Source: a virus
Strand: one strand, 5' to 3'
Virus record (IMG/VR): IMGVR_UViG_3300029812_000079
Coordinates: 1-28,893 of that record
DNA length: 28,893 nucleotides
Part shown: positions 1,812-27,703 of the stretch, one piece after another
Numbering within the stretch: the stretch's first letter is position 1
How the letters are laid out: each line of letters starts with the position of its first letter
Made by a program: the position numbers and the translations under genes
The notes under the pieces: generated by a model
The model's database searches: none
What the model saw: only the letters and a program-made list of their open reading frames with translations
Told to the model about the DNA's origin: nothing

Positions 1812-2180
1812 TTGGTAAGGGGCGAGAAGCTAGATTGTGCAGAATGCCGTAAACTATTAAAACAGAGTGCCTTTCCGGCTGGGACTCAGGTAAGGATTGT
1901 ATTGGAGTGCGAGACGTGCCCATTGGCCCAAACAATCCCCATTCCGGAGAATGAGCAGATTTTGGATTTATACCAGGGATTGCCCCAGACGTTTGATGCA
2001 TTTGGTACTAGGATTGTTGATTTGGATGCATTGAAGCTAGTGTTTGAATTGAATGGAGTTTTTCCTGGATTGCAAGATGACTATGCTAGAAGAATTTTGT
2101 ATTTCAACAGTTGTCTTCTGGAAGAAAAGGCTTTGGTAGAAAAAGAGAAGGGAAAAAGGGAGAAGAGTAGGAAGAAATAA
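1812..2180 (+). CDS. Tail assembly chaperone, frameshifted extension (gpT-like)
   Basis: This frame is probably reached mainly by the -1 shift at 1794-1800, giving a fusion of roughly 294 residues. Independent starting would need TTG 1812, which has no good ribosome site. The 122-residue segment begins with Cys pairs (CAEC and CETC) that may bind metal. It ends with the very basic tail KEKGKREKSRKK. In lambda-like phages the T part recruits tape measure and tube subunits. The stop overlaps the ATG of the inserted nuclease gene (TAATG). Confidence 0.7.
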   Translation: MVRGEKLDCAECRKLLKQSAFPAGTQVRIVLECETCPLAQTIPIPENEQILDLYQGLPQTFDAFGTRIVDLDALKLVFELNGVFPGLQDDYARRILYFNSCLLEEKALVEKEKGKREKSRKK

Positions 2181-3085
2181 TGCCTAGTGGAGTATATACA
2201 AGAACAAAGCTGTCTCATCGCAAAGGGATGACTATGGAAGAGGAGTATGGGGTAGAACGAGCTAAAAAGTTAAAGGAAAGAACAAGAGATACAAGAATGG
2301 AAGGGATAAATGCAGGGCGAATAGTTTCTTGGAATAAAGGAAAGACTGGACTTCAAGTTGCATGGAATAAAGGTTTAACAAAAGAGATTGATGAACGTGT
2401 TGGAAAAATGAGTAAAAATGTGAGTAAGTCTGTGAAGGAATTATGGAAAGATGCTAAATATAGAGAAAAATGTGTTAAGGCAATAACAAAGAATTGGCAG
2501 AATCCTGAATATAGAAAAAGTCAAACTAAAGCAATAACTAAAGGAGCAAATCGTTCAGAAACAAAAGCAAAACAGAGGGAAGTAAACAATCGTCCAGAAG
2601 TGAAGAAGAAGCGAAGTGAGGCAAGAAAAAAGTTATGGAAAAATTCAGACTGGAGAAAGAGACAAATTAAGTTAATAAAAAGGACTATAAATCAACCAGA
2701 AGTAAGGGAGAAGAAGAGTAGAGCAAGAAAGAAACTTTGGCAAGACCCAGAATATGTTAGAAAACAGATGAAAGCTTATCATGTTACTCCAAATAAAGTG
2801 GAGATGGAACTAGACAAACTTCTTCAGCAAATATTATCTAATGAATACAAGTATGTAGGATCAGGGGAATTCATATTAGCAGGCAAATGTCCTGATTTTG
2901 TTAACGTAAATGGTCAGAAGAAGTTGATAGAGTTATATGGGGATTATTGGCATCAGGGAGAAACAGGGGAGGATAGAAAAGCCTTATTTAGGAAGTATGG
3001 CTATCAGACTCTCATTGTTTGGGAGCATGAGTTAGAAGATATAGTATCTTTAAAAAGCAAGCTTTTGGAGTTTAATGGTAGATAA
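2180..3085 (+). CDS. Freestanding homing endonuclease-like protein, Vsr-like (EDxHD-type) nuclease domain
   Basis: A 301-residue, very Lys/Arg-rich protein. Residues about 1-210 carry repeated helical modules of the type KxLWQDPEYRKxxxKA, resembling NUMOD-like DNA-binding repeats of homing endonucleases. Residues about 215-301 form a compact nuclease domain with PDF (D239), IELYGDYWH (E251, D255, H258) and WEHE. This fits the Vsr-related homing endonuclease family to which I-Bth0305I belongs. The same D/E/D/H pattern recurs in the protein at 20300-21112. The gene sits between the chaperone and tape measure genes, a spot that normally has none, overlapping the chaperone stop by one base. Its AT-rich, lysine-loaded composition differs from its neighbours and suggests transfer. 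No intron was seen. Cleavage target unknown. Confidence 0.75.
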   Translation: MPSGVYTRTKLSHRKGMTMEEEYGVERAKKLKERTRDTRMEGINAGRIVSWNKGKTGLQVAWNKGLTKEIDERVGKMSKNVSKSVKELWKDAKYREKCVKAITKNWQNPEYRKSQTKAITKGANRSETKAKQREVNNRPEVKKKRSEARKKLWKNSDWRKRQIKLIKRTINQPEVREKKSRARKKLWQDPEYVRKQMKAYHVTPNKVEMELDKLLQQILSNEYKYVGSGEFILAGKCPDFVNVNGQKKLIELYGDYWHQGETGEDRKALFRKYGYQTLIVWEHELEDIVSLKSKLLEFNGR

Positions 3086-7258: not shown

Positions 7259-8203
7259 GTGAAAAATATTCGGATTTCAGCGATAAAAGGTAAAACTTAT
7301 GAAGAATTTTATGGTAAAATAAGAGCAGAAGAACTAAAACACAAACTTAGTGAGTCTCATAAAGGTCAAAGAAAAGGTCAAACATACGAACAGTTATATG
7401 GAGCAGAAAGAGCTATTGAGATTAAGAAGAAAAAAAGAAAAGCGAAATTGGGTACAAAAATACCACTAGAGAAAAGATGGAACCTTACCGCTGAAAATAA
7501 AAAAAATCAATCATTAGCTAAAAAGGGAAAATCTACAATATTAAAAGGAAAAACATATGAACAAATATATGGTAGCAAAGAACAAGCTGAATTTGAAATA
7601 AAGAAAAGAATTACTTTAGAAAAGATAAAGAAAACAGCTGAAGCATTAATAGGGCATAAAGTTTCTGAAGAAACAAGAAAGAAGATAAGAGTAGCTATTA
7701 AGGGAGAGAAAAATTATATGTTTGGGAAACATCATTCCAAAAGAGTGAGAAGAAAAATAAGTAAGGGTAATAAGGGAAAAATAGTTTCTAAAAAAACAAG
7801 AGAGCAAATGAGTAAAACTAAAAGTCAATTAATTAAAGAAGGGAAGATTAATTTAGTTACCCATGGACTAAATGGGTATTTTTATTCCCAAAAAAACAGA
7901 AAGAGTATTTGGTATCGAAGCTCTTATGAACTACAAGCATATAAAATTCTAGAGCAGCTATCAAAAGTAATTAGGTATGAATCTGAGCCTTTTTATGTCC
8001 CTTATAGATTTCGGGAAATAGAAAAAAATTATGTGCCAGATATTTTAATAACTTATGAGGACAATACAAAAGAACTAATAGAGGTTATGCCAGCTTATCA
8101 ACTTGATGACTCTATAAGGAATGCAAAATTCCGATCGGCTAGAAAGTATTGTAAGAAAAATAATATGAAATTTTCTATTTGGACTGAAAAGGAGTTGTTT
8201 TAA
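7259..8203 (+). CDS. Freestanding homing endonuclease-like protein with NUMOD3-type repeats and PD-(D/E)XK domain
   Basis: A 314-residue basic protein beginning GTG one base after the tape measure stop, with GAGGAG upstream. Residues about 8-120 contain at least three copies of a motif like GKTYEQLYGAERA followed by KxK. Residues about 145-195 contain NUMOD3-like segments (VSEETRKKIRVAIKG, HHSKRVRRKISKGNKGK). Both are DNA-binding modules of phage homing endonucleases. The C-terminal 100 residues (SSYELQAYKILE, SEPFYVPYRF, YVPDILITYEDN, KELIEVMP) have the E...PD...E-x-V layout of a TnsA-like PD-(D/E)XK nuclease, a fold different from the Vsr-like domain of the gene at 2180. Strong A-richness marks it as a probable insertion between tape measure and tail-tip genes. 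Confidence 0.72.
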   Translation: MKNIRISAIKGKTYEEFYGKIRAEELKHKLSESHKGQRKGQTYEQLYGAERAIEIKKKKRKAKLGTKIPLEKRWNLTAENKKNQSLAKKGKSTILKGKTYEQIYGSKEQAEFEIKKRITLEKIKKTAEALIGHKVSEETRKKIRVAIKGEKNYMFGKHHSKRVRRKISKGNKGKIVSKKTREQMSKTKSQLIKEGKINLVTHGLNGYFYSQKNRKSIWYRSSYELQAYKILEQLSKVIRYESEPFYVPYRFREIEKNYVPDILITYEDNTKELIEVMPAYQLDDSIRNAKFRSARKYCKKNNMKFSIWTEKELF

Positions 8204-13393: not shown

Positions 13394-16297
13394 GTGCCAA
13401 CAGGTGATAGAGTAATTTCAAAGAAGGAGTTGGAAGCCCTGTCCCGCAATTTTTCTAGACAAATTAAAGCCGTTCGTCAACATGCTGTAGGTGGCTATAC
13501 GGCATTTTTGGATTTGGAAGATACACCTGATTCCTTTTCCGGGCAATCTGGGAAATCTCTAATAGTTGACAGTAGCGAAAAGATTTTGGGATTCAAATCT
13601 TTCGCCTTTCTTGATCTTGGTGATACACCTGCTTCTTTCGCAGGAGAAGCCGACAAAGTTCTCAAAGTTAATGCTGGTGAAGATGCAGTAGAATTTGGCA
13701 CATTAGGTGATTTTCCTTTAGATATTCTTGGCACTCCAACATATAAAACACTTCAGGACTGGCTGAATCTCACGCAGTCAGCCGGGAAAACTATTGTTGG
13801 TGCTGTTCTAACAGCACATTCTCCAGCTAACGGAACGCTTGATATAGCGGCAGGCACAGGATTCATCAAGACAACGGATTCACCAGTAGGAGATACGAAG
13901 TTTTTCGATTGGAGTGCTGTTAGCGAGCAAGCACTTGATGATGGAACGACTAGCTATATCTATATAGATTACAACGCAGGCAGTCCCATTCCAAAGGTAA
14001 CAACTACTAGAGCTAATATCGAATGGAATCGCCATTTTACTCTGGGGAGAGCATATCGCTCTGGAAATACTGTTCATGTCATAAATAGTGGAGTTGATCT
14101 GACAAATACTAATAGAAGAAACTATGAAAGGCTTATTGGTGTAAGAGGATTTGAGAGAGATTCAGGTGGAGTGATTTCAGAGAGTGGAGAGCGATATTTG
14201 GAAAGCACAGCAGGGATATTTTGGCTTGGTGCAAACGAGATAGCAACAGCAGCACAGAATACAAATAACGGTGATAGATTCACGAAATGGTATCCTGTCG
14301 GAGGGGTTTGGAATTCCGCTACGGAACAGCAGCAAGTTGATAATACTCAATACAGTGATGGTACGGATTTGCAGAATTTAACACCAAATAAATACGGCTG
14401 TATGTGGTGTTATATTGATTATGGCAGCCATTTGCACGTGGTTTATGGATTGCAGAACGGGACATTAACAACCGCTCGTGCAGCAGACCCACCTGACGTG
14501 TCTGCTTTCATTAGAGATTTTGCTATACTTGCAGCAAGGATTATCGTCCAACAAGGAACAGCTAATATTATAGAATTTAAATCGGCTTATGTAACTTTCT
14601 TTCCTCACACAACGCCATCAGAGCATAACGATATGGGTAGTTTACAAGGAGGGACGGCTAATGAATATTATCATTTTACGAATGCTGAACATACAGAGCT
14701 TGCTGTAATAGTTGATCTTGGAAGAGGAATTGCTGATAATAATCTTTTGGCAGTTGATCAGGCAGCGGGACTTACAGATGGTGAAATAATAAGAGCGACA
14801 GCAAGTGGATTAGAAGGACGGAACTATTCAGAAATTATAGCAGATTTAGACCTTAACCCCGTTCTTGGAGTTGAGTGGAATCAAGGAACGGACACTTGGA
14901 GAAATATAGATAAAAATGGTAATACAATTGTTTTAACTTCATCAAATTTCGACAATCATCCTGTCTGGGGTAATATGGTACGAGTGAACATGGCGGTTGA
15001 TGGCACAATCAATGCTGTAAAAGGTGGTATGGGCACTTTCACGAATGACGGCACAAACGGCAGGGTTATGGTTCGTATTCCTAAATTTTGGGTAAAGTCT
15101 GCAAGCTCTTCTGCAAATGTATATCGATGGTGGATTAGTCCGACTCCTATGGCAGGTTTTACTTTATATCCTGCTTTTAAACAATCAGATGGTGGCGCTG
15201 GTGCAGAGCGTGATTTTATCTATATCGCTGCATACGAAGCCGATCCATATTATGATGATGTAAATCTTGTACTGCATTCACGCACAGGAAAACAGCCCTT
15301 CACTGGAGGGCAGATTTGGAAAGTTAATTTCGATGGTGGACAGAATGAGCCTGCGATAGGTGACGATGTTGGGACGGCTACTGATGATAATTTTTTCATC
15401 GTGGATTATATTGTTACAGGTGGCACATGGGCAGGCAATGATGCAAGCGGCAAGCTCTGGATTCGGAAACCTGGAGACGATACTTGCGGATGGACTGATA
15501 ATGAGCAAATAAACAATAACACACAGGCAAACGTCTTGGCTAACGGTGGTGCTGGACTCGGAGTGAATGGGGCAACGACAGCATTAGGATTTAACTTGTC
15601 TCAGGCAAGAGACTATGCACAGAATATCGGCGCTGACTGGCAAATTTGGAATGTGTGGGAAATGTTTGCAATTAGATTACTGTATTATATTGAATATATG
15701 GGAGCAAATTCTCAGACTGCAATTGGACAGGGAGTTGTGAGTAAGGCAGGCGGAACAGGATTCGCAGGCGAGCTTACTGGCGCTGATAATATTGATACAA
15801 ATGTCGGGGCAAACGGCACAGGAACAGGCGATGGGGTAGATGGCGTGACTCCTATTGCATATAGAGGAATTGAGAACTTATGGGGTAATGTCTGGAAATG
15901 GACTGAGGGCTGGAACGCTGTAAGTGGCGTGGATGCTGCGAATGATGTGAAATACAGGGTATTGAAAAAAGATGGGACAACTACTTTTGCCGATACGCTT
16001 GCGACTTATGATGAAAGTCCGAACTATGTGCATACAGCGCTACCAAATGGATACCAGAAGAATATCGAATGGAATGATGGGTTTGAATTATTGTTTTTGC
16101 CATCAGCTGTTACTGGGCTTTCAACCTCTCATCTCTACGATTATTTCTATGAACATGATAATGGAGAAACTAATGTCCTGTTCTTCGGCGGCGCTTGGGC
16201 TTCTGGCGTCAACGCTGGTGTCGGCTGTCTGTATTCTAGTGATGGTGCTGCGTATTCTTCTCGGGCTCTTGGCGGGCGGCTGAGTTTTATAAAATGA
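13394..16297 (+). CDS. DGR target: tail fibre/receptor-binding protein with variable C-type-lectin/FGE-sulfatase-like C-terminus
   Basis: A 967-residue protein read from GTG with AGGAGAG six nt upstream. Residues about 36-98 hold two copies of a known phage-fibre repeat (FLDLEDTPDSFSG and FLDLGDTPASFAG). The middle is beta-rich with a Gly/Thr-heavy composition. From about residue 490 the sequence resembles the FGE-sulfatase/C-type lectin fold used by DGR target proteins, including QIWNVWEMFAIRLL and ENLWGNVWKWTEG (about 825-837). Residues 928-964 are encoded by the variable repeat and hold most changeable positions; the protein ends three residues later (FIK), with the stop inside the downstream hairpin. 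It is very likely the receptor-binding tip whose ligand range the retroelement diversifies. Confidence 0.9.
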   Translation: MPTGDRVISKKELEALSRNFSRQIKAVRQHAVGGYTAFLDLEDTPDSFSGQSGKSLIVDSSEKILGFKSFAFLDLGDTPASFAGEADKVLKVNAGEDAVEFGTLGDFPLDILGTPTYKTLQDWLNLTQSAGKTIVGAVLTAHSPANGTLDIAAGTGFIKTTDSPVGDTKFFDWSAVSEQALDDGTTSYIYIDYNAGSPIPKVTTTRANIEWNRHFTLGRAYRSGNTVHVINSGVDLTNTNRRNYERLIGVRGFERDSGGVISESGERYLESTAGIFWLGANEIATAAQNTNNGDRFTKWYPVGGVWNSATEQQQVDNTQYSDGTDLQNLTPNKYGCMWCYIDYGSHLHVVYGLQNGTLTTARAADPPDVSAFIRDFAILAARIIVQQGTANIIEFKSAYVTFFPHTTPSEHNDMGSLQGGTANEYYHFTNAEHTELAVIVDLGRGIADNNLLAVDQAAGLTDGEIIRATASGLEGRNYSEIIADLDLNPVLGVEWNQGTDTWRNIDKNGNTIVLTSSNFDNHPVWGNMVRVNMAVDGTINAVKGGMGTFTNDGTNGRVMVRIPKFWVKSASSSANVYRWWISPTPMAGFTLYPAFKQSDGGAGAERDFIYIAAYEADPYYDDVNLVLHSRTGKQPFTGGQIWKVNFDGGQNEPAIGDDVGTATDDNFFIVDYIVTGGTWAGNDASGKLWIRKPGDDTCGWTDNEQINNNTQANVLANGGAGLGVNGATTALGFNLSQARDYAQNIGADWQIWNVWEMFAIRLLYYIEYMGANSQTAIGQGVVSKAGGTGFAGELTGADNIDTNVGANGTGTGDGVDGVTPIAYRGIENLWGNVWKWTEGWNAVSGVDAANDVKYRVLKKDGTTTFADTLATYDESPNYVHTALPNGYQKNIEWNDGFELLFLPSAVTGLSTSHLYDYFYEHDNGETNVLFFGGAWASGVNAGVGCLYSSDGAAYSSRALGGRLSFIK
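16175..16284 (+). repeat. DGR variable repeat (VR)
   Basis: A 110-bp segment aligning without gaps to 16353-16462 (offset 178). There are 27 mismatches: 26 fall at template adenines (33 adenines in all) and only one elsewhere (T16423 in the template, G16245 here). Both copies share the start GTCCTG and end GGCTGAG/GCAGCTGAG. The GC-rich unmutated 3' end (around 16271-16284) fits the initiation-of-mutagenic-homing region. Codons 928-964 of the target gene lie here in frame. Confidence 0.96.
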
Positions 16298-16307
16298 AAA
16301 TTTTATA
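16288..16307 (+). promoter_or_regulatory. Hairpin/cruciform just downstream of VR (homing-site structure)
   Basis: TATAAAAT (16288-16295) and ATTTTATA (16300-16307) form a perfect 8-bp stem around the loop GAAA, beginning 3 nt after the VR end. The Bordetella phage BPP-1 retroelement has an 8-bp stem with a 4-nt GAAA loop a few bases after its VR that promotes target recognition; the match in stem length, loop and position is close. The target gene's TGA stop (16295-16297) is part of the structure. Confidence 0.82.
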
Positions 16308-16352
16308 CATTTAGAAAATATTTTTGGTATAGGAGCGAAAACGATGTACGCA

Positions 16353-16462
16353 GTCCTGTTATTCAGCAGCAATTGGAATAATGGCGTCAAAACTGGTGTC
16401 AGCTATCTGAATTCTAATAATGTTGCTACGAATTCTAATCAGAATATTGGCAGGCAGCTGAG
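16353..16462 (+). repeat. DGR template repeat (TR)
   Basis: A 110-bp template, 68 bp downstream of the VR and about 150 bp before the reverse transcriptase. Nine of its codons, read in the VR frame, are AAT, the codon type favoured in DGR templates because changing its adenines gives many residues without making stop codons. Sequence diverges from the VR immediately outside both ends. AGGAG (16331-16335) and ATG 16344 precede it, opening an 87-codon frame to 16607 that I regard as incidental to the template RNA. Confidence 0.96.
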
Positions 16463-16610
16463 CTTAGGGCGAATAATGGCGAGGAGTTTGCCTCTAAACA
16501 GTTTCTATACCATGCCCATATTAAAGGCAAAACACAATACTCTTTTAAAAACAGTGTTAGTAATTTTTATGAAAACTCTGTTTTTCCTCGCCAACACAAT
16601 GGAATAAAAG
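16463..16610 (+). ncRNA. DGR template-RNA spacer between TR and reverse transcriptase
   Basis: In characterised DGRs the RNA downstream of the TR is needed to prime and bind the reverse transcriptase. Here the spacer can fold. GGCGAGGA (16478-16485) pairs with TCCTCGCC (16585-16592). An inner stem of 12 bp with one mismatch forms between 16547-16558 and 16574-16585. The two stems meet at base 16585, so they could stack. The boundaries of the RNA are inferred; no promoter of its own was seen. Confidence 0.65.
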
Positions 16611-17687
16611 ATGAAACGACACACCAATCTTTTTGAAAAAATAATAGATTATGGTAATCTTGTGCTTGCCCATTTAAATGCAAGAAAGGGGAAGGATTAT
16701 TACAGTGAAGTTAAAAAAGTTGATAAGAATATGGATTTTTATCTTAGAAAACTTCAAATTTCACTTCTTAATAGAAATTTTACAACTTCAGAATACGAAA
16801 TTTTTACTATAACTGAACCAAAAGAGCGAATTATTTATAAACTTCCTTATTTTCCTGATCGAATTGTTCATCATGCAATAATGCAAATACTCCAACCAAT
16901 ATGGGATAAAACCTTTATTTTTGATTCTTATGCTGCTGTTCCTAGAAAAGGAATTCACGCTGGCTATTATAGGCTTAAACAATTCTTGAGAGATAAAGAA
17001 AATACAAAGTATTGTCTGAAGATAGACATAAAAAAGTATTACCCGAGCATTGACCATAATATTCTATTCAATTTAATTAAAATGAAAATTAAATGTAAAG
17101 ATGTCCTGTGGTTATTGGAAGATATAATCAGAAGTGTTTCAGGAAACAAAGGGCTGCCGATTGGCAATTATCTGTCTCAATACCTTAGTAATATCTATCT
17201 AAATTATTTTGATCATTGGATTAAAGAAAAAGTAAGATGCAAATATTATATAAGATATTGTGATGATAGTGTTATTTTGTATAAAAATAAGGAATATTTA
17301 AATTGGTTGTTAGAAAAGATTAGATTGCATTTGTGGAATCACTTAAAACTAAAGCTGAATAAAAAATCCCAAATATTTCCTGTTGAATCAAGAGGAATAG
17401 ATTTTCTGGGCTACAAAACTTATCATCAATATTCTTTACTGAGGAAATCTTCACATAAAAAATTTAAGCAAAAAATTGATTATATCAAACAAAATTATAA
17501 TAAATTAAAATCCAAATACATCATAAGTTCAATAATGTCCTATGTGGGTTGGCTTGTGCATTGTGATAGTCATAATTTATTAAATAAATATATTTATAAA
17601 GATGAATTTATATTGAATATTATCGAGAATGCTTCTAAGGATTTAAATTTAAAAAGGAATCCAATAGATAAGTTTATGGAGAAATAG
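16611..17687 (+). CDS. Diversity-generating retroelement reverse transcriptase
   Basis: A 358-residue reverse transcriptase of the DGR group. It copies the template RNA with adenine-specific errors so the cDNA can replace the VR. Visible motifs: FDSYAAVPRKGIHAGYYRL near residue 105; KIDIKKYYPSID with catalytic D139; the DGR/group-II-like motif GLPIGNYLSQ (181-190); catalytic YCDD (216-219); and FLGYKTY in the thumb-proximal region. Length is usual for DGR reverse transcriptases, with no maturase or endonuclease domain. The start ATG has only a weak GGA upstream. Composition is clearly more AT-rich than the fibre gene. No gene resembling the accessory protein Avd lies beside it. Confidence 0.95.
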   Translation: MKRHTNLFEKIIDYGNLVLAHLNARKGKDYYSEVKKVDKNMDFYLRKLQISLLNRNFTTSEYEIFTITEPKERIIYKLPYFPDRIVHHAIMQILQPIWDKTFIFDSYAAVPRKGIHAGYYRLKQFLRDKENTKYCLKIDIKKYYPSIDHNILFNLIKMKIKCKDVLWLLEDIIRSVSGNKGLPIGNYLSQYLSNIYLNYFDHWIKEKVRCKYYIRYCDDSVILYKNKEYLNWLLEKIRLHLWNHLKLKLNKKSQIFPVESRGIDFLGYKTYHQYSLLRKSSHKKFKQKIDYIKQNYNKLKSKYIISSIMSYVGWLVHCDSHNLLNKYIYKDEFILNIIENASKDLNLKRNPIDKFMEK

Positions 17688-20299: not shown

Positions 20300-21112
20300 A
20301 TGGACAAAATACCAAAAGCATTCAATCGGGAGGAGGCACTTCATCTAATAAAGAAGACAAGGGATCACATGTCAAAAGAGACAGAAGCCATTAGAGTGAT
20401 ATATGAAAGCTCATATACTGATACAATAACACTGCCTAAAATATTCCTTCTTTTTAGTGGAGCATTGTCTGACGGGGCTTTGTTGCTGTTGATTCATCTG
20501 CTGAGTATTTCAGAAGAAAAAGAATGTAAAGAAGGTTTCTATGCTCCAATAGCAAGATTGGCAAAAGATTTGGGAGTATGTGAAGTCACTCTTTGGAGAA
20601 GGTTTAAAGAGTTGATAGAGAAAGAAATACTCAGCAAGCCCAAAAGACACCACAAAAAAGATCAGTTGGGGGTTTTCAATACTTACAAAATACGCAATTT
20701 AGATAGATGGTGGGAAAGATTTGGAAAGAGATATAAGAAACTTGTATTGGAAAAACGTAATTTACAGTGGATTAAAGGTCTTAAAGCTACAAAAATAAAA
20801 AAGCCAACTTATCCAGAAAGACTTTTTGATAGCATAACTTCAGATATTGTTCAATATGTAGGCAATGGTACATGGTGGAAGAAACTTAGTGATGGCAAAA
20901 ACCATAACCCGGACTTCAAGATCACAGGACAAAATAAAGTTATTGAGATTTTTGGAGATTGGTGGCATAGAAGAGAGAACCCACAAGAACTTATAGATTT
21001 GTATAAACAAGTAGGATTGGAGTGCTTGGTTTTTTGGGAACATGAGGTTTATAATAATCAGGAAGAAACTTTAGAAAAAGTAAATCAATTTATAAACAAA
21101 AAAGAGGAGTAG
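20300..21112 (+). CDS. Winged-helix (replication-initiator-like) protein fused to a Vsr-like nuclease domain
   Basis: A 270-residue protein with two parts. Residues about 45-130 look like the winged-helix domain of phage replication proteins: a hydrophobic helix (FSGALSDGALLLLIHLL), then ARLAKDLGVCEVTLWRRFKEL. Residues about 170-270 are a Vsr-like nuclease domain with PDF (D205), IEIFGDWWH (E216, D220, H223) and FWEHE. The same catalytic spacing appears at the C-terminus of the protein at 2180-3085. It may be a homing-endonuclease fusion or a replication protein with its own nickase/nuclease. An AAGGGGG ribosome site and an operator-like promoter lie upstream, suggesting separate control. Three palindromes follow in the next 300 nt, which is compatible with an origin nearby. 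Confidence 0.7.
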   Translation: MDKIPKAFNREEALHLIKKTRDHMSKETEAIRVIYESSYTDTITLPKIFLLFSGALSDGALLLLIHLLSISEEKECKEGFYAPIARLAKDLGVCEVTLWRRFKELIEKEILSKPKRHHKKDQLGVFNTYKIRNLDRWWERFGKRYKKLVLEKRNLQWIKGLKATKIKKPTYPERLFDSITSDIVQYVGNGTWWKKLSDGKNHNPDFKITGQNKVIEIFGDWWHRRENPQELIDLYKQVGLECLVFWEHEVYNNQEETLEKVNQFINKKEE

Positions 21113-25471: not shown

Positions 25472-25500
25472 TTGACAAAGCAATAAAAACATGCTATTAT
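25472..25500 (+). promoter_or_regulatory. Sigma70-type promoter for the transposase-methyltransferase pair
   Basis: TTGACA (25472-25477), 17-nt spacer, TATTAT (25495-25500), with a GAGGAG ribosome site before ATG 25527. This gives the pair its own transcription inside the phage genome. Confidence 0.68.
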
Positions 25501-25526
25501 TTAGGTATAAGAATGAGGAGAGAAAA

Positions 25527-26468
25527 ATGAAATATATACCACCTAAATTTAATAGCTTGAATGAGATGGCTGCCATAGATGTAGGCCGATTGACGGAGGA
25601 TGAGGCAAGGAAAATACTTGAGGATTTACGTTGGCCGGATGGCATAAAGTGTCCTCATTGTAAAAGTGATAACGTGACTAGGATCAAAGCAAAGTCTGAC
25701 AAGATTAGGGATGGCTTAATTCAATGCAATGTTTGTCGTGGCCAGTTTACAGTAACAGTTGGGACGGTAATGCATCGCTCTCATATTACACTAAGGCAAT
25801 GGGTGCAAGCATTCTATTCAATATGTACTCATAAGAAAGGGATATCTGCTCTTCAGTTGCAAAGAAATCTCGGGCTTGTTTCTTATAGATCGGCATGGCA
25901 TTTAGCTCATAGGATTAGACTTGCTATGAGAATTGACCCATTGGCAAGTAAACTTAAAGGTATGGTGGAAGTAGATGAAACTTATATAGGTGGCAAACCT
26001 CGCAAGGGAAGCAATAAAAAACACAAAAGGGGGCGTGGTACAGAAAAGTTTCCAGTAATGGCCTTAGTTGAACGCAAAGGAAATGTAGTATCTAAACCCG
26101 TGGAGAAAGTAAATGCCAAGACATTAAAAACGGCTATTAGAGAAGTAGTTAATAAAAACTCAATGATTCTTACAGATGAATGGCCTGCTTATCGTGGCAT
26201 TGGGAAGGATTTTATTGGTGGACATAAGGTTGTTAATCATGGTAAAGGAGAATATGTTAAGGATAATGTTTCTACAAATACCGCAGAATCATATTTTGCA
26301 TTATTGAAGCGTGGCATTCATGGTTCATTTCATCATATTTCGAGGCAGCATTTATCAAGATATTGCGATGAGTTTTCTTTCAGGTGGAATTATAGAAAAG
26401 TGAATGACGGGACTAGGACAGAATTTGCCATTAAGGGAAGTGAAGGCAAAAGGCTTGTTTATAAATGA
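25527..26468 (+). CDS. IS1595-family (ISXO2-like) transposase
   Basis: A 313-residue DDE transposase starting at ATG 25527 (GAGGAG upstream; the ATG-like start at 25491 lies in the promoter). Residues 42-70 form a zinc ribbon (C42, C45, C67, C70) followed by a helix-turn-helix-like region. The catalytic residues are D150 (VEVDETYIGG), D217 (ILTDEWPAY) and E254 (NTAESYFALLKRG), the ISXO2-type core. Length and order are typical, and no frame break is seen, so it may be active. No terminal inverted repeats or target duplications could be found by eye. The methyltransferase start overlaps its stop (ATGA). Confidence 0.88.
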   Translation: MKYIPPKFNSLNEMAAIDVGRLTEDEARKILEDLRWPDGIKCPHCKSDNVTRIKAKSDKIRDGLIQCNVCRGQFTVTVGTVMHRSHITLRQWVQAFYSICTHKKGISALQLQRNLGLVSYRSAWHLAHRIRLAMRIDPLASKLKGMVEVDETYIGGKPRKGSNKKHKRGRGTEKFPVMALVERKGNVVSKPVEKVNAKTLKTAIREVVNKNSMILTDEWPAYRGIGKDFIGGHKVVNHGKGEYVKDNVSTNTAESYFALLKRGIHGSFHHISRQHLSRYCDEFSFRWNYRKVNDGTRTEFAIKGSEGKRLVYK

Positions 26469-27703
26469 AAAATAATCAGCTTACTAAAAATCTTTTAATC
26501 TGTGGAGACAACCTAAAGGCCCTTGATGACCTAATAAAGCAAGGAATTAAGGTTGACCTCATATATCTTGACCCTCCCTTTTTTAGCAATAGGCATTATG
26601 AGGTAGTCTGGGGAGATGAGGCAGAGGTTAGAAGCTTTAAGGATCGCTGGGCTGGTGGAATAAATGTATATATAGAGTGGATGAGGGAAAGAGTTGTTAA
26701 ATTGCATGAAATCTTAAAGGATACTGGCTCTTTTTATCTTCATTGCGATTGGCATGCAAGTCATTATTTAAAGGTTATGTTGGATGGGGTGTTTGGATGT
26801 CACAATTTTAGGAATGAAATAATATGGTGTTATAGAGGAGCTGGTTATCCGAAAAAAGATTTTGGGAAAAGGCATGATACTATTTTCCGATACTCAAAAA
26901 CAAAAGAATATGTATTCAATTTAGACGATGTAAGAGAAGAATATGCAGAAGCAACAATAGAAAGATTCAAACATTATATTGGAAACGTGAGAAAATCAGG
27001 AAATTTTGGAATTCAGAAACTAAACCCATTGGGGAAACAGCCTGATGATTGGTGGATGATTCAGCCAATTGCTCCCTCTGCCAAAGAGCGCCTTGGATAT
27101 CCCACTCAAAAACCGGAAGCACTTTTAGAAAAAATAATCAAAGCATCTTCAAATAAAGAAGATTTAGTTTTAGACCCATTCTGCGGCTGCGGAACTGCTA
27201 TGGCTGTAGCTCAACGATTAGGAAGAAAGTGGATAGGAATTGACATTTCTCCTACTGCAATAAGTTTAATTGAGAACAGATTAGAGAAAGTAGGAGCTAT
27301 AAGAAGCAAAGATTTCGATACTATCGGGATGCCTACAACAATATCAGAACTGGAGGCATTAGAGCCTTTTGAATTCCAGAACTGGGCTATAAACGAGATG
27401 CAGGCAAAACAAAGCAAGAGAGTAGTTGGAGACAAGGGAATTGATGGGCATATAGAAAAAAGCCTTTATTCTGAAGAGGCGGGAATTCAAGTGAAGCAGT
27501 CTGAAAAAGTGGGGAGAAATATTGTAGACAACTTTGAGACTGCTTTAGAAAGAAAAAAATATAAACGGGGTTATGTTATAGGATTTAGTTTCACCAGAGG
27601 ATCACATGAAGAGGTTGCCAGAGTTAAAGAGGAAAAAGGGCTATATATTAAACTTATCAAGGTAGAGGATTTATTGAAGAGAAAATCGGGGCTTTTGAAA
27701 TAA
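26465..27703 (+). CDS. Adenine-type DNA methyltransferase fused to Mrr-like nuclease domain
   Basis: A 412-residue protein overlapping the transposase stop by 4 nt. The N-terminal 285 residues are a beta-class methyltransferase: motif IV DPPF (36-39) comes before YPTQKPEALLEKII (motif X) and DPFCGCGT (237-244, motif I). DPPF suggests N6-adenine methylation. Residues about 300-412 resemble an Mrr-type PD-(D/E)XK domain: FEFQNWAINEM, D323-x3-D327 in GDKGIDG, and QVK (342-344), followed by a long helix and KRGYVIGFSFTRGS. The D...QVK core is intact, so it may cut as well as methylate. It could act as a stand-alone restriction-modification protein, or as a phage protective methyltransferase. Fusion and operon layout are visible; activity is inferred. 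Confidence 0.85.
   Translation: MKNNQLTKNLLICGDNLKALDDLIKQGIKVDLIYLDPPFFSNRHYEVVWGDEAEVRSFKDRWAGGINVYIEWMRERVVKLHEILKDTGSFYLHCDWHASHYLKVMLDGVFGCHNFRNEIIWCYRGAGYPKKDFGKRHDTIFRYSKTKEYVFNLDDVREEYAEATIERFKHYIGNVRKSGNFGIQKLNPLGKQPDDWWMIQPIAPSAKERLGYPTQKPEALLEKIIKASSNKEDLVLDPFCGCGTAMAVAQRLGRKWIGIDISPTAISLIENRLEKVGAIRSKDFDTIGMPTTISELEALEPFEFQNWAINEMQAKQSKRVVGDKGIDGHIEKSLYSEEAGIQVKQSEKVGRNIVDNFETALERKKYKRGYVIGFSFTRGSHEEVARVKEEKGLYIKLIKVEDLLKRKSGLLK

Follow-up and report, generated by a model that had tools for sequence, protein, structure and literature searches.

A target-TR-RT diversity-generating retroelement with no detected Avd gene in a phage genome fragment, and a covarying spacer RNA beside its template

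We analyzed one virus record from IMG/VR (IMGVR_UViG_3300029812_000079; 28,893 bases, hereafter the window), a fragment of a phage genome that carries a diversity-generating retroelement (DGR). Its parts lie on one strand in the order target gene, template repeat (TR) and reverse transcriptase (RT) gene (Table 1). The target gene encodes a phage tail protein and terminates in the variable repeat (VR), and a spacer separates the intergenic TR from the RT gene.

Table 1. Features of the retroelement in the window
Feature	Position	Strand	Evidence or remark
Target gene, 967-aa phage tail protein, GTG start, C-terminal end formed by the VR	13394-16297	+	phrog_5302 tail protein, 4e-60
Variable repeat (VR), final part of target gene	16175-16284	+	Gapless 110-bp alignment with TR
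Inverted repeat TATAAAAT-GAAA-ATTTTATA, 3 bp past VR	16288-16307	+	8-bp AT-only stem, GAAA loop
Template repeat (TR), intergenic, between target gene and RT gene	16353-16462	+	Direct-repeat search, TR/VR alignment
Predicted spacer RNA, TR to RT, 148 nt	16463-16610	+	Covariance model R1 match 16449-16608
Spacer closing stem P1, 5' arm TGGCGAGG	16477-16484	+	Pairs with 16586-16593
Spacer hairpin P2, TGCC (16513-16516) and GGCA (16526-16529), then conserved AAACACAA	16513-16529	+	
Spacer stem P3, AAAAACAGTGTT (16547-16558) and AACTCTGTTTTT (16574-16585), U-U mismatch, loop motifs AGUA and GAA	16547-16585	+	
Spacer closing stem P1, 3' arm CCTCGCCA	16586-16593	+	Pairs with 16477-16484
DGR reverse transcriptase, 358 aa, intact	16611-17687	+	RVT_1 / PF00078, 7e-21; phrog_1423, 1e-123; PDB 8ub7, 4e-44

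The VR and TR share 83 identities at an offset of 178, and an independent search for direct repeats found no long pair in the region other than these two. Their differences fall almost entirely on template adenines. For 26 of the 33 adenines the VR carries another base (14 to G, 8 to C and 4 to T; 7 kept), against 1 of the 77 other sites (C 0/19, G 0/25, T 1/33), a restriction with a Fisher exact P of 9e-18; the sole non-adenine change is T to G at 16245. These coordinates and counts agree with a preliminary description made from the sequence alone, which took them as a sign of past mutagenic homing, and we hold this to be the only economical account of the pattern. Most of the 33 template adenines occupy first (18) or second (13) codon positions and only 2 occupy third positions. 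Nine of the codons that bear them are AAT, and the variable codons would in principle permit about 1e18 protein variants (computed).

The RT open reading frame (ORF) is uninterrupted. Its catalytic motifs include motif A (YCLKIDIKKYYPSID), YCDD and GLPIGNYLSQ, the DGR-type form of motif 4, and the protein belongs to the DGR family of RTs. Among solved structures, the closest set is the 8ub7 series, which we take to be the BPP-1 DGR RT complex and hence the nearest solved relative of this RT. The target gene ends, as had also been noted, a few codons after the VR, with its stop codon 13 nt beyond the repeat.

In order to examine the fold of the target, its last 488 residues (480-967) were modelled with AlphaFold2 from a 27-sequence alignment (predicted local distance difference test score, pLDDT, 82.7). 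The best structural match of the model was Thermus aquaticus TaqVP (5vf4; Z 26.7 over 271 residues, root-mean-square deviation 3.0). TvpA (Z 14.0), Mtd (Z 13.0) and formylglycine-generating enzymes (FGE) all matched at Z 12-14. The modelled C-terminal half is thus assigned a C-type-lectin/FGE fold of the TaqVP/Mtd/TvpA type, and the earlier guess of an FGE-sulfatase/C-type-lectin fold was therefore right. A difference is that TaqVP is encoded in an Avd-containing DGR (PMC6328139). The model also shows a 90-residue, beta-barrel-like insertion at residues ~639-731 (model 160-252), with a weak match to translation-factor beta-barrels (Z ~6). It is present in one related locus (L010) and missing from several other relatives.

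The inverted repeat just past the VR recalls the hairpin found downstream of the VR in BPP-1-type targets, which has a 7-10 bp GC-rich stem and a GRNA loop (PMC3240598). The two are alike in their 8-bp stem and GRNA-type loop, but the window stem is AT-only whereas that of the conserved BPP-1 hairpin is GC-rich. Such a hairpin has a chance expectation of ~2.5% at this site, and comparable ones follow only 5 of 96 VRs (relatives included), three of the five from one lineage. We do not claim it as a required part, since relatives lack it. Perfect hairpins of 9-12 bp with 4-nt loops stand just after the VR in L057 (after 5711), L070, L072 and L073; most relatives have none.

For comparison we searched viral contigs with a profile of five RTs, which gave 80 related loci (L numbers in this text). 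About 70 of these ~80 RT loci have a TR/VR pair, the same target-TR-RT order and change restricted to TR adenines, and some have two or three VRs per TR.

The Avd calls rest on the model NF033474, which replaced PF05635 because the latter missed the BPP-1 control; NF033474 found all three positive controls (BPP-1, VP58.5 and BalMu-1). Neither model matched anything in the window, a 28.9-kb fragment, and NF033474 identified no Avd among the relatives tested (36 IMG/VR records and 4 phage records). The phage cr6_1 gave one 16-bit match below the cut-off, with stop codons inside. The name lineage 3 has been given to an Avd-less target-TR-RT layout reported in crAssphage LMMB (PMC7290462). Maximum-likelihood analysis of the RTs placed the window RT, L010 and 11 other RTs of uncultured viruses together in a supported clade of 13 rows. 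This clade was separate from both the crAss group and the Avd-encoding clade in a tree that is unrooted and was made without the published lineage-3 reference set. The eight Avd-encoding phages grouped in a single neighbouring clade, to which two Avd-less RTs were adjacent. The tree is unrooted and was sampled around the window, and it therefore does not tell whether Avd was gained or lost. The element is almost certainly an Avd-less DGR of a tailed phage with the target-TR-RT order, that is, of lineage 3 architecture. The preliminary description had called it complete: RT, TR, VR and a target with a predicted C-type-lectin fold are all there, but it is complete only as a member of an Avd-less lineage, since no Avd was found in the contig, which is a fragment.

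The part of this otherwise ordinary DGR that goes beyond the preliminary description is the spacer between TR and RT. The distance between the two is 90-210 nt in relatives (240 nt in one outlier), and the spacers have short nucleotide blocks in common (GGCAAAACACAA, GTGTTGGTAG and CGAARGCTC), separated by insertions and deletions that do not come in threes. RNAalifold, run on 22 relatives with the window left out, predicted 10 pairs, 9 of them with compensatory change. We built a covariance model (R1) from this alignment, so that the window took no part in its training. With filters off, R1 scored 46.3 bits (E 4e-7) at 16449-16608 of the window, against 11.9 bits at the next best place there. 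Over 45 R1 matches, 98% of the cells were paired and the covariation score was 0.628, compared with at most 0.105 when the partners were slid by 1-3 columns. The 45-match alignment was fitted to R1, which favours this score; RNAalifold alone recovers the same pairs.

Stems P3 and P1 were also assessed separately. An independent script that searched for P3 next to the AGUA/GAA loop motifs detected it in 50 of 82 spacers, whereas dinucleotide shuffles gave an expectation of 2.1. In the window, P3 has 11 pairs and a U-U mismatch, a pairing reached by none of 1000 dinucleotide shuffles, and it covaries in relatives. P1, 8 bp long in the window, joins the start of the spacer to the sequence before the RT gene; over all loci, pairing is stronger when both arms come from one locus than when they come from different loci (P = 1e-5, the loci being related). 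The predicted fold of the full window spacer contains both P1 and P3 (z -1.5). For the window's own clade, RNAalifold gave no structure, as MAFFT misaligned the P3 arms, and a script was used to compare these arms.

R1 matches most Avd-less relatives and 8 of 10 Avd-less reference phages (E < 0.05), although cr130_1 and Versailles, both counted among the eight, give weak matches of 24-28 bits. It matched none of the eight Avd-encoding DGR phages, and BPP-1, BalMu-1 and VP58.5 stayed unmatched even with filters off. An Rfam search of the window returned no match, spacer RNA included. On this comparative evidence, the 148-nt spacer is a covarying, structured RNA that is conserved in Avd-less DGRs. 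In BPP-1, the spacer folds, recruits RT and Avd, and supplies the priming adenosine (PMC12875486). By analogy, the simplest inference is that the spacer RNA would do the job of the BPP-1 spacer without Avd. A broader proposal, which we put forward only tentatively, is that Avd-less phage DGRs share an uncatalogued spacer RNA of their own, with P1, P2 (TGCC/GGCA with AAACACAA) and P3 (with a conserved U-U and GGUAG/CGAA loop motifs). This RNA might take over the RT-recruiting and priming roles of the BPP-1 Avd and RNA, have no counterpart by sequence in Avd-encoding DGRs, and also exist as an additional template module that lacks its own RT. Two related loci (L061, 3490-3922; L075, 2903-3348) each hold an additional TR, which is accompanied by a further copy of the spacer RNA and whose VR sits in a small gene apart from the main target. 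No second RT gene adjoins these modules, and one RT may serve two template RNAs.

The crAss-like Avd-less DGRs (crAssphage LMMB, cr6_1, cr60_1 and cr52_1) have the target-TR-RT order, a C-terminal VR in a tail protein, no avd, an RT 43-50% identical to that of the window and the same predicted spacer RNA. They differ in that crAss members recode TAG whereas the window uses the standard genetic code; its RT falls in a separate clade, and, so far as its other genes were seen, the phage is not related to them. The DGR of Psychrobacillus phage Perkons, a Firmicute phage, has the same layout, an RT ~50% identical, a target related over the C-terminal part and the spacer RNA (60 bits), but its repeat is 137 bp long with 32/42 adenine changes. 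The DGR of Bordetella phage BPP-1 (mtd-avd-TR-brt) resembles that of the window in its homologous RT, its adenine-specific VR change and its C-type-lectin receptor-binding target. Its spacer after the TR is of similar length (~144 nt) but is not matched by R1, and BPP-1 has Avd whereas the window contig has no Avd match.

The relatives also bear on activity. Across 92 distinct VR/TR pairs, 1619 template adenines were changed, against 35 of 6274 non-adenine sites. The preliminary description had proposed counting VR variation in related sequences at the sites of TR adenines, and we did so in pairs of near-identical contigs. The L056/L074 pair, with RTs 99.9% identical and 250 nt upstream identical, differs in the VR at 12 of 22 adenine sites and at none of 63 others. 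Differences are likewise confined to adenine sites in L072/L073 (16/34 versus 0/89), L036/L048 (17/34 versus 0/88) and L061/L075 (9/27 versus 0/85), while a few other sites also differ in L030/L031 (19/30 versus 5/88) and L035/L039 (14/30 versus 8/83); L026/L027 is identical throughout and thus uninformative. The VRs of the informative pairs differ at 9-19 template-adenine sites and almost nowhere else, rather than evenly over all bases. Such differences between near-identical contigs show the Avd-less DGR family to be active in nature.

Several points weigh against our reading of the window itself. The record is a 28.9-kb fragment, and an Avd gene could lie elsewhere in the phage. The window's R1 score of 46 bits compares with 80-108 for most of the clade, and its nearest relatives score lower still (17-25 bits, E > 0.05). 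As regards present activity, a search of viral contigs for an exact 26-mer of the RT catalytic region, aimed at other sequences of the same population, gave no match; a pattern search for the RT in genome contigs yielded no confirmed relative. Because no second sequence of its population was found, we infer the activity of the window copy. The words "apparently active" in the preliminary description thus hold for near-identical relatives, where VR change is restricted to adenines, and only by extension for the window.

The window could instead hold a fossil cassette, in which the VR was diversified once and the retroelement no longer works in the phage. In its favour, a single VR/TR pair of the population is known, and the stem after the VR is AT-only, unlike the GC-rich BPP-1-type stems. 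We consider this unlikely, since the RT ORF is intact with its catalytic motifs, the spacer RNA helices are intact and the relatives are active; moreover, 76 of 77 non-adenine sites are identical between TR and VR, and so there has been almost no decay since the last homing.

The TR might also lie inside a translated leader ORF (16344-16607), coupled to RT translation, and so not be purely non-coding RNA. This ORF begins 9 nt before the TR and ends 4 nt before the RT start, and an AGGAG Shine-Dalgarno sequence lies 8 nt upstream of its ATG. In 26 of 70 loci the TR frame runs without a stop codon as far as the RT start; the other two frames do so in 9 and 20. However, this is a small excess among related loci, and the spacer is conserved at the nucleotide level, with indels that are not in threes and with base-pair covariation. 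We judged translation of the TR improbable and rejected the ORF as a gene on the weak frame-openness test and the RNA-like conservation of the spacer. In several relatives the frame of the ORF covering the TR ends in ATGA at the RT start. Finally, although tail genes often have duplicated ends, the chance that an ordinary duplication of the tail-gene end acquired adenine-biased substitutions randomly or by selection is negligible, being refuted by the substitution pattern (P = 9e-18) and opposed by the adjoining DGR-family RT and by the dozens of relatives that have this layout.

Under an Avd-less DGR, the phage would transcribe the TR together with the structured 148-nt spacer RNA, which the RT would bind and from which synthesis of complementary DNA (cDNA) may be primed. 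The RT would then copy the TR, placing random bases opposite adenines, and the cDNA would replace the VR at the 3' end of the tail-protein gene, a retrohoming step that is presumed for the window copy. Up to 21 codons could be altered in this way on the ligand-binding face of a C-type-lectin-type receptor-binding domain, and the diversified tail protein would probably serve in host-receptor switching.

Elsewhere in the window, an IS1595-family (ISXO2-like) transposase gene has a stop codon that overlaps the start of a gene for an N6/N4 DNA methyltransferase fused to an Mrr-type nuclease domain (25491-27703); no terminal repeats were found flanking this pair. There are also three free-standing endonuclease-like genes (2180-3085, 7259-8203 and 20300-21112), two of which flank the tape-measure gene. 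The product of 7259-8203 combines NUMOD3 with a TnsA-like nuclease domain, and the other two have a VSR/DUF559-like C-terminal end in common, as judged by eye.

Tens of thousands of DGRs are known, and the window adds one case, a DGR of an already known kind that is ordinary apart from its RNA element. Its relatives give direct sequence evidence of natural activity in the Avd-less family. The predicted spacer RNA beside the template is a covarying element that can be searched for and tested. The RT of BPP-1 needs both Avd and a structured spacer, and a conserved spacer RNA makes the way in which Avd-less DGRs may manage without Avd open to test.

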